In this document: positions 45,699-62,247 of the stretch, one piece after another | Layout of the letters: each line of letters begins with the position of its first letter | Position numbering within the stretch: position 1 is the first letter of the stretch | Assembly (NCBI RefSeq): GCF_023634805.2 | Contig: NZ_CP106881.1 | Coordinates: 2,710,001-2,774,000, forward strand | Length of the DNA stretch: 64,000 nucleotides | Reading direction: 5' to 3' | Source of the DNA: Comamonas endophytica | GTDB lineage: Bacteria > Pseudomonadota > Gammaproteobacteria > Burkholderiales > Burkholderiaceae_C | The notes under the pieces: generated by a model | The model's input: only the letters and a program-made list of their open reading frames with translations | What the model was told of the DNA's origin: nothing | Databases searched by the model: none | Program-made: the position numbers and the translations under genes

Positions 45699-46767
45699 AC
45701 CGCGTCCCCAGGTCTCGAAACTCTGGACCTATGCCTCGCCGGTGCTGGCGCTGGCCATCACCGTGCTGATCGGCGTCGCGCTGTTCGTGCTGCTGGGCAA
45801 GGACCCGGTGCGCGGGCTGCAGGCCTTCTTCTGGGAGCCGATCAAGTCGGGCTACGCGCTGGGCGAACTGGTCATGAAGGCCACGCCGCTGCTGCTGGTG
45901 GCGCTGGGCCTGGCGGTGTGCTTTCGCTCCAATGTCTGGAACATCGGCGCCGAAGGGCAGTTCGTCATTGGCGCGGTGTGCGCCGGCGGCATTGCGCTGC
46001 TGGCGGACAAGGACACCGGGCCTTGGATCGTGCCCGCGATCCTGGCGGCCGGGGTCATCGGGGGCATGCTCTGGGCGGCGATCGTCGCCTTCCTGCGCGA
46101 CCGTTTCAACGCCAACGAGACGCTGGTCAGCCTGATGCTGGTCTATGTCGCGATCCTGGTGCTGGGTTACCTGGTCTACGGCCCGTGGAAGGACCCGATG
46201 GGCTACAACTTCCCGCAGAGCAAGACCTTCGAGCGCGTGACGCAGATTCCGAAGCTGATCGACGGCATGCGCATGAATATCGGCGTGATCCTCGCGCTGC
46301 TGGGCGCGGGCGCGCTGTGGATCTTCCTGGCGCGCACGCGCGCCGGCTTCGCGCAGCAGGTCAGCGGCCTGGCGCCGGCAGCCGCGCTGTACGCCGGCTT
46401 TTCCTCGCGCCGCGCGCTGTGGACGGCGCTGCTGGTCTCGGGCGGCGCGGCCGGCCTGGCCGGGGCGCTGGAAGTCGCCGGCCCGATGGGCCAGCTCACG
46501 CCCTACGTTCCCGCGGGCTACGGTTTCGCCGCGATCATCGTGGCCTTTGTCGGACGCCTGCACCCCGTGGGCATGATCTTTTCCGCCATTCTCATGAGCA
46601 TGTTCTATATCGGCGGCGAGCTGGCGCAGTCGCGCCTGGGCCTGCCCAAGTCCCTCACCGGCGTGTTCCAGGGCCTGCTGCTGTTCGCGCTGCTGGCCTG
46701 CGACACGCTGGTGGCCTACCGCCTGCGCTGGCGCCGCGCCGCTCCCGCAATCAAGGGAGGTGCGTGA
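45685..46767 (+). CDS. BMP-family ABC importer, permease 1
   Basis: The protein has 360 residues and about ten hydrophobic segments. VALGLAVCFRSNVWNIGAEGQFVIGAV and AAIVAFLRDRFNANETLVSLML are signatures of the NupP/YufP-like permease family. It forms the nucleoside channel with permease 2. AGGAG lies six bases before the ATG, which overlaps the end of the ATPase gene. Confidence 0.93.
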   Translation: MLRLEPRPQVSKLWTYASPVLALAITVLIGVALFVLLGKDPVRGLQAFFWEPIKSGYALGELVMKATPLLLVALGLAVCFRSNVWNIGAEGQFVIGAVCAGGIALLADKDTGPWIVPAILAAGVIGGMLWAAIVAFLRDRFNANETLVSLMLVYVAILVLGYLVYGPWKDPMGYNFPQSKTFERVTQIPKLIDGMRMNIGVILALLGAGALWIFLARTRAGFAQQVSGLAPAAALYAGFSSRRALWTALLVSGGAAGLAGALEVAGPMGQLTPYVPAGYGFAAIIVAFVGRLHPVGMIFSAILMSMFYIGGELAQSRLGLPKSLTGVFQGLLLFALLACDTLVAYRLRWRRAAPAIKGGA

Positions 46768-47726: not shown

Positions 47727-48878
47727 ATGACGAATCTGCACAAACGCTCCCTTCTCAAGGCCGCCGCGCTGTCGGCGGTGGCCCTGGCCGCGCTGGTGGC
47801 CTGCGGCAAGAAGGAAGAAGCCGCTGCGCCCGCAGCCGCGCCTGCGCCCGAAGCCGCTGCCGCGGCCGAGCCGCTGAAGATCGGCTTCATGTACGTGAGC
47901 CCGGTGGGCGACGGCGGCTGGACCTTCCAGCACGAGAAGGCGCGCCAGGCGCTGCAGGCCGAGTTCGCAGGCAAGATCGAGACCTCGCTGGTCGAGAGCG
48001 TGCCCGAGGGCCCGGACGCCGAGCGCGTGCTGCGCGACATGGTCGGCCAGGGCAACAAGCTGGTGTTCGCCACCAGCTTCGGCTACATGGAGCCGGTGCA
48101 GAAGGTGGCCGCCGAGGCCAAGGACGTGAAGTTTGAGCATGCCACCGGCTACAAGACCGCGGACAACGTGCGCACCTACGACGCGCGCACCTATGAAGGC
48201 GCGTACCTCGCGGGCATCATTGCCGGCGGCATGAGCAAGTCCGGCCAGATCGGCGTCGTGGCCTCGGTGCCGATCCCCGAAGTGCTGCGCAACATCAACA
48301 GCTATGTGCTGGGCGCGCAAAGCGTGAACCCGAAGATCACGGCGCGCGTGGTCTGGGTCAACGAATGGTTCAGCCCGCCCAAGGAATCCGAAGCCGCCAC
48401 GACGCTGATCAACGGCGGCGCGGACGTGCTCTACCAGAACACCAATTCCCCCGCGGTGCTCAAGACCGCCCAGGAGCGCGGCGTGCGCGCTTTCGGCAAG
48501 GACTCCGACATGAGCGCCTACGCGCCCAAGGCGCATCTGGCTTCGGCCGAGATCAACTGGCTGCCCTACTATCGCAAGATCACGCAGGACACGCTGGCCG
48601 GCACCTGGAGCACGGGCCAGGACTGGTGGGGCGTGAAGGAAGGCGCGATGGACCTGGTGAGCATTGCCGACGACGTGCCGCAGGAGCTCAAGGACAAGGT
48701 CGCCGCCGCCAAGGCCGGCCTCAAGGACGGCAGCTTCCACATCTGGAAGGGCCCGCTCAAGGACAACACCGGCAAGCAACTGCTGGCCGAAGGCGCCAAC
48801 GGCGACCATGCCTTCCTCAGCGGCATCAACTTCTACGTGGCCGGCATCGACGGCACCGTGCCGGGCGCCAACAAGTGA
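47727..48878 (+). CDS. BMP-family basic membrane lipoprotein, nucleoside binding (copy 1)
   Basis: The protein has 383 residues. A lipobox ALVAC puts Cys at 26, followed by a charged Ala/Pro linker. The binding fold has LKIGFMYVSPVGDGGWTFQHEKAR, ESVPEGPDAERVLRDMVGQGNKLVF and GYKTADNVRTYDARTYEGAYLAGI, all BmpA/Med family. It delivers purine nucleosides or related bases to the permease pair. It follows permease 2 by 39 bases. A second, close copy starts 150 bases after its stop. Confidence 0.93.
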   Translation: MTNLHKRSLLKAAALSAVALAALVACGKKEEAAAPAAAPAPEAAAAAEPLKIGFMYVSPVGDGGWTFQHEKARQALQAEFAGKIETSLVESVPEGPDAERVLRDMVGQGNKLVFATSFGYMEPVQKVAAEAKDVKFEHATGYKTADNVRTYDARTYEGAYLAGIIAGGMSKSGQIGVVASVPIPEVLRNINSYVLGAQSVNPKITARVVWVNEWFSPPKESEAATTLINGGADVLYQNTNSPAVLKTAQERGVRAFGKDSDMSAYAPKAHLASAEINWLPYYRKITQDTLAGTWSTGQDWWGVKEGAMDLVSIADDVPQELKDKVAAAKAGLKDGSFHIWKGPLKDNTGKQLLAEGANGDHAFLSGINFYVAGIDGTVPGANK

Positions 48879-48948
48879 TGCGGCGCGGGCACGTTACTTG
48901 CTGACACATTCCGTGTAGGGCAAGGGCGTGCCCAGCCATTGGCGCGCC

Positions 48949-48996
48949 GGATCGCCGGGCCGCCGGAACGCCGGGCCGCCGGATCGCCGGGCCGCC
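48949..48996. repeat. Tandem repeat, three 16-bp units
   Basis: Three consecutive units GGATCGCCGGGCCGCC (middle one GGAACGCC...) lie between the two BMP lipoprotein genes. They can fold into GC-rich stems. Such a tract may vary in number between strains. Confidence 0.85.
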
Positions 48997-49029
48997 TGAT
49001 GCCTCCATTGCATTTATCTAGGATGAACC

Positions 49030-50187
49030 ATGACTGATCTGCACAAGCGTTCGATGTTCAAGATGGCGGCACTGACCGCCGTGGCAGCGGCCGCCCTGGC
49101 CGGCTGCGGCAAGAAGGAAGAGCCGGCACCGGCTCCTGCCGCCGCTCCCGAAGCCGCGGCACCCGCCAAGGCCGAGCCGCTGAAGATTGCCTTTGCCTAT
49201 GTCGGCCCCGTGGGCGACGGCGGCTGGTCGTTTGCCCACGACCAGGCGCGCAAGAAGCTGGAGCAGGAATTCGGCGACAGGATCCAGACCAGCTACGTCG
49301 AAAGCGTGCCCGAGGGCCCCGACGCCGAACGCGTGCTGCGCGACATGGCCGGCCAGGGCAACAAGCTGATCTTCGGCACCACCTTCGGCTACATGGAGGC
49401 GATCCAGAAGATCGCTCCCGACTTCGCCGACGTGAAGTTCGAGCACGCCACCGGCTACAAGACCGCCGCCAACGTGCGCACCTACGACAGCCGCACCTAT
49501 GAAGGCGCCTACCTGGCGGGCATCATTGCCGGCGCGATGACCAAGAGCAACACGCTGGGCGTGGTCGGTTCGGTGCCGATCCCCGAAGTGCTGCGCAACA
49601 TCAACAGCTTCACGCTGGGCGCGCAGTCGGTGAACCCGAACATCAAGACCAAGGTGGTCTGGGTCAACGAATGGTTCAGCCCGCCGAAGGAAACCGAAGC
49701 CGCGACCTCGCTGATCAACGGCGGCGCCGACGTGCTGTTCCAGAACACCGACTCGCCCGCCGTGCTCAAGACCGCGCAGGAAAAGGGCAAGCGCGCCTTC
49801 GGCTGGGATTCGGACATGACCGCCTACGGCCCCAAGGCCCACCTGGGCTCGGCCATCATCAACTGGCAGCCCTACTACAGCAAGGCGGTCAACGAAGCGC
49901 TGGCCGGCAACTGGACCACCGGCTCGAGCTGGTGGGGCGTGAAGGAGGGCACCATCGACCTGGTGTCGATTGCCGACGACGTGCCGGCCGAGATCAAGGC
50001 CAAGGTCGAACAGGTCAAGGCCGGCCTCAAGAACGGCAGCTTCACGATCTGGAAGGGCCCGATCGCCGGCCAGGACGGCAAGGAACTGCTGGCTGCAGGC
50101 ACCGCGGCCGACGACAAGTTCCTGTCGGGCGTGAATTTCTACATCAAGGGCGTCGAAGGCAACGTGCCTGGCGGCGACAAGAAGTAA
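49030..50187 (+). CDS. BMP-family basic membrane lipoprotein, nucleoside binding (copy 2)
   Basis: The protein has 385 residues and a lipobox with Cys at 26 (ALAGC). Its sequence closely follows copy 1 over the whole length (LKIAFAYVGPVGDGGWSFAHDQARK, NVRTYDSRTYEGAYLAGI, WWGVKEGTIDLVSIADDVP). It is probably a tandem duplicate with an altered ligand range. It ends with a strong terminator, which suggests the importer operon stops here. Confidence 0.93.
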   Translation: MTDLHKRSMFKMAALTAVAAAALAGCGKKEEPAPAPAAAPEAAAPAKAEPLKIAFAYVGPVGDGGWSFAHDQARKKLEQEFGDRIQTSYVESVPEGPDAERVLRDMAGQGNKLIFGTTFGYMEAIQKIAPDFADVKFEHATGYKTAANVRTYDSRTYEGAYLAGIIAGAMTKSNTLGVVGSVPIPEVLRNINSFTLGAQSVNPNIKTKVVWVNEWFSPPKETEAATSLINGGADVLFQNTDSPAVLKTAQEKGKRAFGWDSDMTAYGPKAHLGSAIINWQPYYSKAVNEALAGNWTTGSSWWGVKEGTIDLVSIADDVPAEIKAKVEQVKAGLKNGSFTIWKGPIAGQDGKELLAAGTAADDKFLSGVNFYIKGVEGNVPGGDKK

Positions 50188-53978: not shown

Positions 53979-54138
53979 TAGAATCCGCACCGCCTGTTCC
54001 AGTGCCCGCTGGGACGGGCTTTTGTTTTCAGCGCCGGGTCGACTGGCGCTGAAGGACAACCGGGGGCTTTGCCTTCCGGTACGCCTTGCACGCAGTGAAA
54101 AGCGTGGGGCTTTTTTTCGGGTCATGTAGAGGAACACC
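53979..54138 (+). promoter_or_regulatory. Structured 5' leader with possible attenuator, before the third BMP gene
   Basis: A TAGAAT hexamer (53979-53984) could be a -10 box, giving a transcript from about 53991. The leader can form: helix P1, GTTCCAG with CTGGGAC (53997-54003 and 54010-54016); terminator-like stem GCCCG/CGGGC (54004-54008 and 54015-54019) followed by TTTTGTTTT, which shares bases with P1 so that they exclude one another; helix TCAGCGCC/GGCGCTGA (54028-54035 and 54045-54052); ACCGG/CCGGT near 54059-54080; and a last stem CACGC/GCGTG (54089-54106) followed by seven T, about 20 bases before the ATG. This is how riboswitch or attenuator leaders look. I recognise no known class. 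Confidence 0.6.
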
Positions 54139-55239
54139 ATGTACAAAAACCTCGCAGCCGCGCTTGCGGCCGCCTGTTTTTTCGCCCCCGTCTTTTCCCA
54201 GCCCGCGAAGGCCCAACCAGATGCCGGCAAGCCGCTGTCGGCGGCATTCGTCTATGTCACGCCGGTGCTCGAAGCCGGCTGGACGCACCAGCACGATGCC
54301 GGACGCAAGGCCGCCGAGGCCGCACTCGGCAAACAGCTGCAGACCACGGTGGTGGCCGATGTGCCCGAAGGCCCCGATGCCGAGCGCGTGCTGCGCGATC
54401 TCGCACGCAGCGGCCACCAGCTGATCTTCACCACCAGCTTCGGCTACATGGAGCCGACGATGCGCGTGGCGCGCGACTTTCCCGGCGTGAAGTTCGAGTC
54501 GATCACCGGCTACAAGCGTGCCGACAACGTCGCCACCGCCAATGCGCGCTACTACGAGGGCCGCTACCTGTCGGGCATTGCCGCGGCGCGCATGAGCAAG
54601 AGCGGCGTGGCCGGCTACGTCGCGGGCTTTCCCATTCCCGAAGTGCTGCAGGGCATCAACGCGTTCACGCTGGGCATGCGTTCGGTCAACCCTTCGGCCC
54701 AGGTCAAGGTGGTCTGGCTCGACACCTGGTTCGATCCCGCCAGGGAGCGCGATGCCGCCATGACGCTGATGAACCAGGGCGCCGATGTGCTGGCCTTCCA
54801 TTCGGCGACCAACGCGGTGATGGTCGCGGCGCAGGAGCGCGGCAAGTTCGCCGTGGCCTACCACTCCGACATGCGTGCGGTGGCGCCCGATGCGCAGATC
54901 CTGGCCGTGACGCACCAGTGGGGCGACTACTACACACGGCGCGCGCGCGCCGTGCGGGACGGCACCTGGACCAGCGGCGATGTCTGGGGCGGCGTGCGCG
55001 AAGGCATGATCCGCCTCGAGGCCTTTGGCCGCAAGGTCCCCGCGGCCGTGCAAAAGGAAGTGCTGGCGCAGCAGCAGGCCATGGCCCAGGGCCGCCTGCA
55101 GCCCTTTGCCGCAGGGCAGGGCGATGTGCGCGACAACTCCGGCCGCGTCGTGATTGCCAAGGGTACACAGCTCAATGATGCGCAGATCCTGGGCATGAAC
55201 TGGCTGGTCGAAGGCGTCCAGGGCAACATCAAACATTGA
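54139..55239 (+). CDS. BMP-family periplasmic binding protein (copy 3)
   Basis: The protein has 366 residues with a cleavable signal peptide (ends AKA) and no lipobox, unlike copies 1 and 2. The fold has LSAAFVYVTPVLEAGWTHQHDAGRKAAE, DVPEGPDAERVLRDLARSGHQLIF and NVATANARYYEGRYLSGI. It is more diverged from copies 1 and 2 than they are from each other. No permease or ATPase is beside it, so it probably uses the importer 8 kb upstream. It follows the structured leader and precedes guaD by 29 bases, so its ligand may be guanine or guanosine. Confidence 0.9.
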   Translation: MYKNLAAALAAACFFAPVFSQPAKAQPDAGKPLSAAFVYVTPVLEAGWTHQHDAGRKAAEAALGKQLQTTVVADVPEGPDAERVLRDLARSGHQLIFTTSFGYMEPTMRVARDFPGVKFESITGYKRADNVATANARYYEGRYLSGIAAARMSKSGVAGYVAGFPIPEVLQGINAFTLGMRSVNPSAQVKVVWLDTWFDPARERDAAMTLMNQGADVLAFHSATNAVMVAAQERGKFAVAYHSDMRAVAPDAQILAVTHQWGDYYTRRARAVRDGTWTSGDVWGGVREGMIRLEAFGRKVPAAVQKEVLAQQQAMAQGRLQPFAAGQGDVRDNSGRVVIAKGTQLNDAQILGMNWLVEGVQGNIKH

Positions 55240-62217: not shown

Positions 62218-62247
62218 TAAAAAAAGCGCCTTGCGGCGCTTTTTTCG
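62218..62247. terminator. Bidirectional intrinsic terminator between rhlE and the Bug gene
   Basis: Stem AAAAAGCGCC/GGCGCTTTTT (62221-62230 and 62235-62244) with a TTGC loop, with A run on the left and T run on the right, so it works on either strand. It ends rhlE on plus and the Bug-family gene on minus. Confidence 0.92.

Follow-up and report, generated by a model that had tools for sequence, protein, structure and literature searches.

A conserved pseudoknot and ribosome-site element before a BMP-family binding protein gene in Comamonas endophytica and its relatives: a candidate preQ1-I-like riboswitch

In the preQ1-I riboswitches, as described in PMC11625349, loop L1 opens with a U, a cytosine stands just 5' of the P1 3' strand, a G-C floor closes P1, and an adenine of the A-rich L3 reads the ligand; in types II and III the specificity cytosine is preceded by an A. 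The A-rich 3' tail carries 4-5 adenines before P2 (PMC10622847), and in translational members the Shine-Dalgarno sequence is buried as the P2 3' strand (PMC11625349; PMC10622847). For the import of queuosine precursors, a transporter survey (PMC11130926) names an ABC family (PF00005) as an untested candidate, and the terms "BMP" and "basic membrane" are absent from its main text. Among BMP-family proteins, AtzT is reported to bind guanine (110 nM) more tightly than adenine (2.5 uM) (PMC6834077).

Here, we describe an element that comprises the leader and the first five codons of BMP3, the third BMP gene in the window (the whole stretch of 64,000 nt that was analyzed). We consider it likely that leader and codons together form a translational OFF riboswitch with a preQ1-I-like core, whose ligand would be preQ1 or a close 7-deazaguanine. 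An initial annotation had pointed out a -10-like box followed by a structured leader and had read in it the logic of an attenuator or riboswitch. The box is present as TAGAAT, and none of 200 dinucleotide shuffles folds as well as the leader (-78 kcal/mol; shuffle mean -59.9, z -3.9). The idea of a riboswitch holds insofar as this is a conserved, riboswitch-like cis-regulatory RNA, but the mechanism and the place were wrong. The annotated range ended at 54138 and thereby cuts the core, whose last 15 nt are inside the gene, and neither the pseudoknot 54004-54008/54118-54122 nor the invariant core 54123-54153 figured in that account. The features are listed in Table 1.

Table 1. Layout of the leader and the beginning of BMP3, in window positions.
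Feature	Position	Strand	Basis
-10-like box TAGAAT	53979..53984	+	sequence; TANRAT in relatives
Outer pseudoknot helix S1, 5' strand	53992..54002	+	hairpin match; S1 covaries in relatives
Outer pseudoknot helix S2, 5' strand, hairpin loop GCCCG	54004..54008	+	loop complementary to tail, with covariation among relatives
Outer pseudoknot helix S1, 3' strand	54009..54019	+	hairpin match
Linker L3, 98 nt, with three extra hairpins and T7	54020..54117	+	comparison with relatives
Extra linker hairpins	54028-54052, 54059-54080, 54083-54110	+	
Seven T (T7) after the last extra stem	54111-54117	+	
Outer pseudoknot helix S2, 3' strand CGGGT	54118..54122	+	zero gap to core
Core, proposed P1 5' strand CAUG, last G the proposed floor base	54123..54126	+	CATGT conservation
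Core loop L1: invariant U (proposed U6 equivalent), then A/C/G	54127..54128	+	
Shine-Dalgarno GAGG, proposed P2 5' strand	54129..54132	+	
Core loop L2 ANNAC; C54137 the proposed specificity cytosine	54133..54137	+	comparison with PMC11625349
Proposed P1 3' strand, C plus start codon AUG	54138..54141	+	
First codons: loop L3 NNN(N)AAAA, then CCUC as proposed P2 3' strand	54142..54153	+	
BMP3, BMP-family periplasmic substrate-binding protein, proposed queuosine-precursor binder	54139..55239	+	PF02608

Two stems of the window leader resemble terminators, one at 53992-54019 and one at 54083-54110, the latter with the T7. The first, which is followed by TTTTGTTTT, has the most pairs among 15 terminator-like matches between positions 46000 and 64000. 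A stem with seven T had been placed just before the start codon; stem and T7 are there, but the T7 ends 21 nt before the AUG. The computed fold also contains a long-range helix, AUCCG/CGGGU, that uses the -10 box and adjacent bases. In relatives the first helix begins 6-7 nt past the -10 in 58 of 123 measured leaders, the most frequent spacing, so these bases are probably untranscribed.

The linker L3 is 98 nt long in the window, whereas 155 of the 164 relatives that could be parsed have one of 7-19 nt. Its three inner hairpins (54028-54110) are missing in the close relatives L004-L006 and L084, and the extra stems were seen in this form in no other leader. At least 5 T within 8 nt after S1 were counted in 109 of the 164 parsed leaders. 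The competition between the first helix and a terminator-like stem, as proposed in the initial annotation, is thus not a conserved feature. Three other leaders (L138, L140, and L187) have long linkers with one added hairpin each and keep S2. The window shows a change of this kind too, its S2 being GCCCG/CGGGU with a 98-nt linker. The inserted hairpins and the U7 (54028-54117) may add a transcription terminator in the window genome. Neither the leader nor its insert has a second copy in its own genome, where only short, chance-level matches were found, and the idea that the linker insert is a repeat was rejected on this ground. A single entry of a plasmid collection, from a Variovorax, gave a match to a portion of the query.

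Across the relatives, the loop of S1 can pair with the 4-7 nt that immediately precede CAUGU, which gives an H-type pseudoknot. TANRAT lies 44-66 nt upstream of CATG in 127 of 170 leaders and was not found in the other 43, and the linker L3 is 56% U over 158 leaders. Examples of S2 strand pairs are GCUCUGG/CCAGAGC (L043), GUCACGG/CCGUGGC (L009), GCUCCAG/CUGGAGC (L049), GGUCA/UGACC (L096), and GUCCUG/CAGGAC (L007). With loops defined from hairpins folded without the tail, an S2 of at least 4 bp was found in 95% of 170 unique leaders, in 63% with tails swapped and in 40% with tails shuffled; for at least 6 bp, the values were 65, 32, and 6%, and in the swapped control many leaders have an identical tail. 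In a MAFFT alignment of 30 leaders, 96% of S2 cells and 68% of the poorly aligned S1 cells were paired. The whole-structure covariation score of this alignment was 0.365 against 0.207 when shuffled (reached by 0 of 500) and at most 0.192 when slid, and two of five measures were attained by some shuffles (28 and 19 of 500). Tree-based counting over 157 leaders yielded 52 compensatory changes at 7 S2 pairs vs. 6 at 6 slid pairs; the parser's requirement of 4 pairs makes this count partly circular. Overall, the outer pseudoknot exists and is supported by covariation of S1 and S2, the check on homologous leaders that the initial annotation had recommended.

In the 164 parsed leaders, P1 follows S2 with no gap, an abutment that the parser required. 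Six of the 170 unique leaders were left unparsed (L001, L018, L128, L133, L134, and L136). The window leader itself (L001) has a linker that exceeds the 75-nt slice, L018 has one U-U mismatch in S2, L128 has an irregular S1, and in L134 and L136 S2 is displaced by one base and would need a 1-base shift to abut P1. The core is present without a convincing outer pseudoknot in L133, a fragmentary copy from a MAG, and in L170, a spurious parse. L133 and L120 stem from one genome (G366), in which the element context is divided between two contigs: a leader and a broken core are on the first, and a core and BMP without the outer pseudoknot are on the second. This split is probably an assembly artefact or a rearrangement.

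The core extends from -16 to +15 as CAUGU[A/C/G]GAGGANNACC-AUG-NNN(N)AAAACCUC and is nearly invariant through codon 5. CATGT and ATG are present in 211 of 211 unique elements with a core tail, and AAAACCUC in 211 of 212 unique elements; the second base of L1, after the invariant U, is A in 172, C in 38, and G in 1. Most of the loci behind these counts were fetched by patterns that hold the upstream core half (CATGT). A search with the downstream half only, unconditioned on CATGT, returned 132 places in 299 genomes, and CATGT is present at all 132; 131 of these places are in genomes on the lists of the A or C form of the element (matched by handle), and one reads CATGTG. Codon 5 is CTC in 167 of 170 and codon 3 is AAA in 168 of 170, compared with 29% of Leu codons and 18% of Lys codons, respectively, elsewhere in these genes. 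Because CTC at Leu5 and AAA at Lys3 stand so far above their usual codon shares, protein selection fails to explain the conservation of the early codons. The core is conserved as RNA, even at synonymous positions. At five queE loci (L135, L173, and L256-L258) there is one A fewer and the frame differs from that of BMP, yet AAAACCUC is kept.

The letters at -5 and -4 vary without compensation, and the other free core positions are -11 and +4 to +6. The P1 and P2 pairs of the core are invariant, the proposed P1 having just 4 bp; since these pairs never vary, the AUG and the Shine-Dalgarno sequence being fixed, core covariation neither supports nor denies P1 and P2. Two other readings of the core were rejected. 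A start-stop mini-ORF, AUGUAG, is contradicted as a conserved feature by AUGUCG in 12 of the 19 orthologs that lack the A form and by AUGUGG in one further genome. A hairpin GUAG/CUAC around the Shine-Dalgarno sequence was dismissed by eye, given the uncompensated changes at -5 and -4.

Among 100 loci (80 + 20) fetched by the BMP protein alone, the window included and some genomes repeated, the whole core was found in 96; L099-L102 are without it. The A-form pattern CATGTAGAGGANNACCATG matched in 127 of 399 family genomes, as a single copy in 126 and as two in one, and the reversed pattern, used as a control, had zero matches in the same 399 genomes. Of the 128 A-form places, 93 were read as sequence. 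BMP orthologs, defined at E<=1e-130, are present in 121 of the 399 genomes, and the exact A form is in 102 of these 121 (hand-compared lists), directly upstream of BMP in 101. One genome (G245) has the A form upstream of queE and the C form upstream of BMP. A one-letter variant, CATGTCGAGGA, occurs in 12 of the other 19 ortholog genomes; in total, the element lies upstream of 114 of 121 BMP orthologs, and 7 are without it. The C form was found in 38 of 299 family genomes. An order-wide search of 399 genomes, 387 of them outside the family, gave two outside matches to a longer pattern when as many as 3 mismatches were allowed; they belong to one genus, and each is upstream of a BMP gene. Five genomes of genus g70 (L211-L214 and L217) keep BMP, and another conserved start region, CATGAAGAGCGTCACTTCTAAAATACGCAGCAGCGGC..., replaces the element there.

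BMP is the next gene in 194 of 212 element records; of the other 18, 5 have queE next, one (L120) is at a contig end, and 12 are on pieces too short for the next gene to be recognized. Likewise, 27 of 30 C-form loci are upstream of BMP and 3 upstream of queE. Altogether, the element precedes queE in no more than 8 genomes, which represent 5 genera (L110, L111, L135, L173, L181, and L256-L258), and nearly all other sites that were read are upstream of BMP. The QueE proteins are 78-85% identical to that of L173, a full QueE above the TIGR04508 cut-off. A queD gene follows queE in 8 of 8 element-queE loci, and the QueD pieces have their best match to TIGR03367 or TIGR00039, below the cut-off. At the queE loci the element opens a leader ORF of 16-42 codons, the stop of which overlaps the queE start (ATGA) in 6 of 8 and ends 5 nt upstream in 2 of 8. 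The gene order is add, element, queE, queD, guaD in G268 and G398, and add, a further gene, element, queE, queD, guaD in G151, compared with add, element, BMP, guaD in G177, a relative of all three and a congener of G268 and G398; queE-queD thus takes the position that BMP has in G177, behind the same element. This replacement points to a queuosine precursor like preQ1 or preQ0 more than to guanine or adenine as such. The purine ligand guessed in the initial annotation is probably right in kind, as a purine analogue, but guanine and adenine themselves are disfavored. The window genome has its queE at another place, preceded by a weakly QueD-like frame and lacking the element.

Neighbor genes vary among relatives and the element stays. 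In 74 relatives with more than 1 kb of upstream sequence, add ends within 350 nt in 8 and within 1 kb in 22, lies further off in 25, and is absent from the fetched upstream DNA in 27. From these distances and absences, the element is not simply the terminator of add, the plain-terminator reading that the initial annotation had named as a possible refutation. Elsewhere in the window, short GC-rich tandem-like repeats (GCCGGGCCGCCGGATC...) lie at about 48950-49030, between the first and second BMP genes, as found in the upstream sequence of L002, and a terminator-like palindrome, AAAAAAGCGCC...GGCGCTTTTTT, at 62220-62245 is perhaps a two-way terminator.

BMP3 belongs to PF02608; among solved structures, AtzT and 3s99 are closest to it. 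The equivalents of AtzT Ser97, Phe98, Glu165, and Trp194 are kept in 161 of 161 BMP3 orthologs. At the equivalent of Asn220, BMP3 has G in 114 and A in 47, so that none of the 161 keeps the Asn, and position 220 is N or D in BMP1, BMP2, AtzT, and 3s99. The equivalent of Asn218 is H in 146 and Q in 15, and a His at 218 is also found in 3s99, which was modelled with adenine. Two tandem BMP paralogs at 47727-50187 of the window have a pocket matching that of AtzT (N at 218, N/D at 220). The pocket residues of BMP3 would fit a guanine-like ligand altered at one edge, and we propose that BMP3 is a substrate-binding subunit of an importer for queuosine precursors.

The conservation of the outer pseudoknot, and of a core that covers both the Shine-Dalgarno sequence and the start codon, points to control of translation. 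In the mechanism that we propose, the loop of the S1 hairpin pairs with the stretch just 5' of CAUGU and so forms the outer pseudoknot, the part that covariation shows. S2 ends at the core start and may stack on the core, and such coaxial stacking could support a P1 of 4 bp. The core may fold as a preQ1-I-like H-type pseudoknot over the ribosome site, in which P1 would be formed by CAUG with C+AUG (the start codon), L1 by U-N, and P2 by GAGG, the Shine-Dalgarno sequence, with CCUC of codons 4-5; L2 would end in A-C, and L3 would be A-rich. At high levels, preQ1 or a close 7-deazaguanine would form a pair with the cytosine at -2 and lock both helices, hiding the Shine-Dalgarno sequence and the AUG together, so that translation is OFF, a direction of control taken from the known preQ1 switches. 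When the ligand is scarce, the ribosome would initiate, the BMP binding protein would be made, and queuosine precursors could be imported. Upstream of queE-queD, the element would instead control synthesis through the short leader ORF, which may be coupled to queE.

Several other explanations deserve to be weighed against such a riboswitch. One is that the S1 hairpin and a U tract stop transcription, either of the upstream gene or of BMP, as an attenuator or plain terminator, or that they do so as an added layer in this genome only. Both terminator-like stems of the window leader, and the T-rich stretch after S1 in the 109 leaders, would suit this, but the U tract is not universal, and terminator-based attenuation was rejected as a common mechanism for that reason; add is not near upstream in most of the 74 relatives, in which the element is kept, and loop-to-tail covariation and a core inside the ORF would be left unexplained. 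We regard this as very improbable. It is just as hard to credit a constitutive translation enhancer or 5' stabilizer that acts without a ligand. The first helix probably starts at the 5' end of the transcript, and A-rich early codons, such as those of the element, favor translation initiation; however, CCUC opposite the Shine-Dalgarno sequence would hinder it, and the presence of a single A-form copy in 126 of 127 matching genomes, with BMP or queE at the sites read, also speaks against this reading.

It is also conceivable, if distinctly unlikely, that the core is the target of a trans-acting RNA or an RNA-binding protein, and that the outer pseudoknot presents the core or protects the 5' end. 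A nearly invariant stretch of 30 nt over the ribosome site, possibly single-stranded, looks like such a target. However, a search of the window's own genome for a complement of the core, with up to 3 mismatches over 32 nt, found only the site itself, and a complementary trans-acting RNA was rejected within these limits, short seeds being possible. The free positions (-11, -5, -4, and +4 to +6) fit a ligand-binding pseudoknot better than one duplex, and the identifiable next gene is always BMP or queE, one contig end (L120) aside. Finally, the same fold might bind another guanine-like ligand, such as guanine, xanthine, a nucleoside, or queuine, instead of preQ1 or preQ0. The neighboring add and guaD in the window would be in line with this, as would the affinity of AtzT, the nearest solved relative of BMP3, for guanine (PMC6834077). 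We consider it unlikely, since a queuosine precursor would suit the 8 genomes in which the element precedes queE-queD, the neighbors vary in relatives while the element stays, and BMP3 has lost Asn220 of AtzT throughout its orthologs. Overall, a preQ1-type switch remains the reading that we prefer.

The initial annotation had recognized no known class in the leader, and the Rfam search agrees. At the gathering score the window gave zero matches and the leader alone only chance-level ones, and 11 relatives gave zero matches, including to Xanthine/NMT1, preQ1-II (RF01054), and preQ1-III (RF02680). No preQ1 or other relevant Rfam family was found in the window, the leader, the 11 relatives, 7 further loci, or the window genome's own queE locus. 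RF00522 gave six weak matches (E 0.13-0.71, five genomes), none at the element, and was above the cut-off in 0 of 100 family genomes, a weak negative because the model is above its cut-off in just 1 of 14 control genomes. The element is in no Rfam class (Rfam 15) and would apparently be an unrecorded kind of switch.

The core nevertheless shares a set of sequence features with preQ1-I. The A and specificity cytosine correspond to ACC at -3 to -1 in 211 of 211 elements, ACC being held in the search patterns, and the U6 equivalent is U(-12) in 211 of 211 and at all 132 places unconditioned on it. For the G-C floor of P1, G(-13) and C(-1) are invariant, which is compatible in sequence only, and AAAACCUC, at the frequency given above, supplies an A-rich L3 directly 5' of the P2 3' strand. 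An association with queuosine genes is seen in the queE and queD loci, a minority of sites, and a role of BMP in this pathway is putative. A descriptor of preQ1-I features, composed after the core was seen, matched 243 loci (duplicates included), all at the element; it had no match off the element in 2.76 Mb, both strands counted, and none in 640 kb of shuffled sequence.

On balance, we lean towards a new subtype of preQ1-I ("type IV") whose aptamer would consist of the ribosome site itself, with a second covarying pseudoknot stacked beneath it and BMP as a substrate-binding subunit of an ABC importer for queuosine precursors. If this is true, a BMP-type ABC importer would be undescribed for the pathway in the literature searched (open-licence PMC text), where neither the element nor a BMP-type queuosine transporter was found, and it would be a new candidate for the open list of queuosine-precursor transporters given in PMC11130926. 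The BMP binding protein, until now assigned solely by its analogy with purine-binding proteins, would gain a testable substrate. The ligand pocket would include the start codon and extend into the ORF, and a search limited to leader sequences could overlook such an arrangement. PreQ1-type control would be present in a family in which RF00522 detects none above its cut-off in 100 genomes.

Compared with known systems, BMP3 is in the same family as the purine-binding BMP proteins AtzT (6pi5) and Brucella 3s99, with the four pocket equivalents kept; by contrast, the change of Asn220 to G or A removes one polar contact. The xanthine (NMT1 motif) riboswitch is described as an OFF switch that is sometimes near guanine or adenosine deaminase genes, like the element, but it is a hairpin with conserved bulges (PMC7373994), unlike the element's pseudoknot, and has no Rfam match here. 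PreQ1-II and preQ1-III have the presumed ligand and the context of queuosine transporters in common with the element; they are described as HLout-type pseudoknots with another pocket (PMC11625349), and they too gave no Rfam match. The closest resemblance is to preQ1-I types II and III (RF00522), which, as described in PMC11625349 and PMC10622847, have the same order of P1, L1 (U first), P2, L2 (AC), P1', A-rich L3, and P2', together with the G-C floor, a Shine-Dalgarno sequence in P2, and a link to queuosine genes. The element differs in that it goes undetected by RF00522, in that its proposed P1 holds the start codon and has only 4 bp, and in that the strands of P2 are swapped, the Shine-Dalgarno sequence being the 5' strand and the anti-Shine-Dalgarno lying inside the ORF. 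In addition, it is adjoined by a second, upstream pseudoknot, and its main target is a BMP binding protein.
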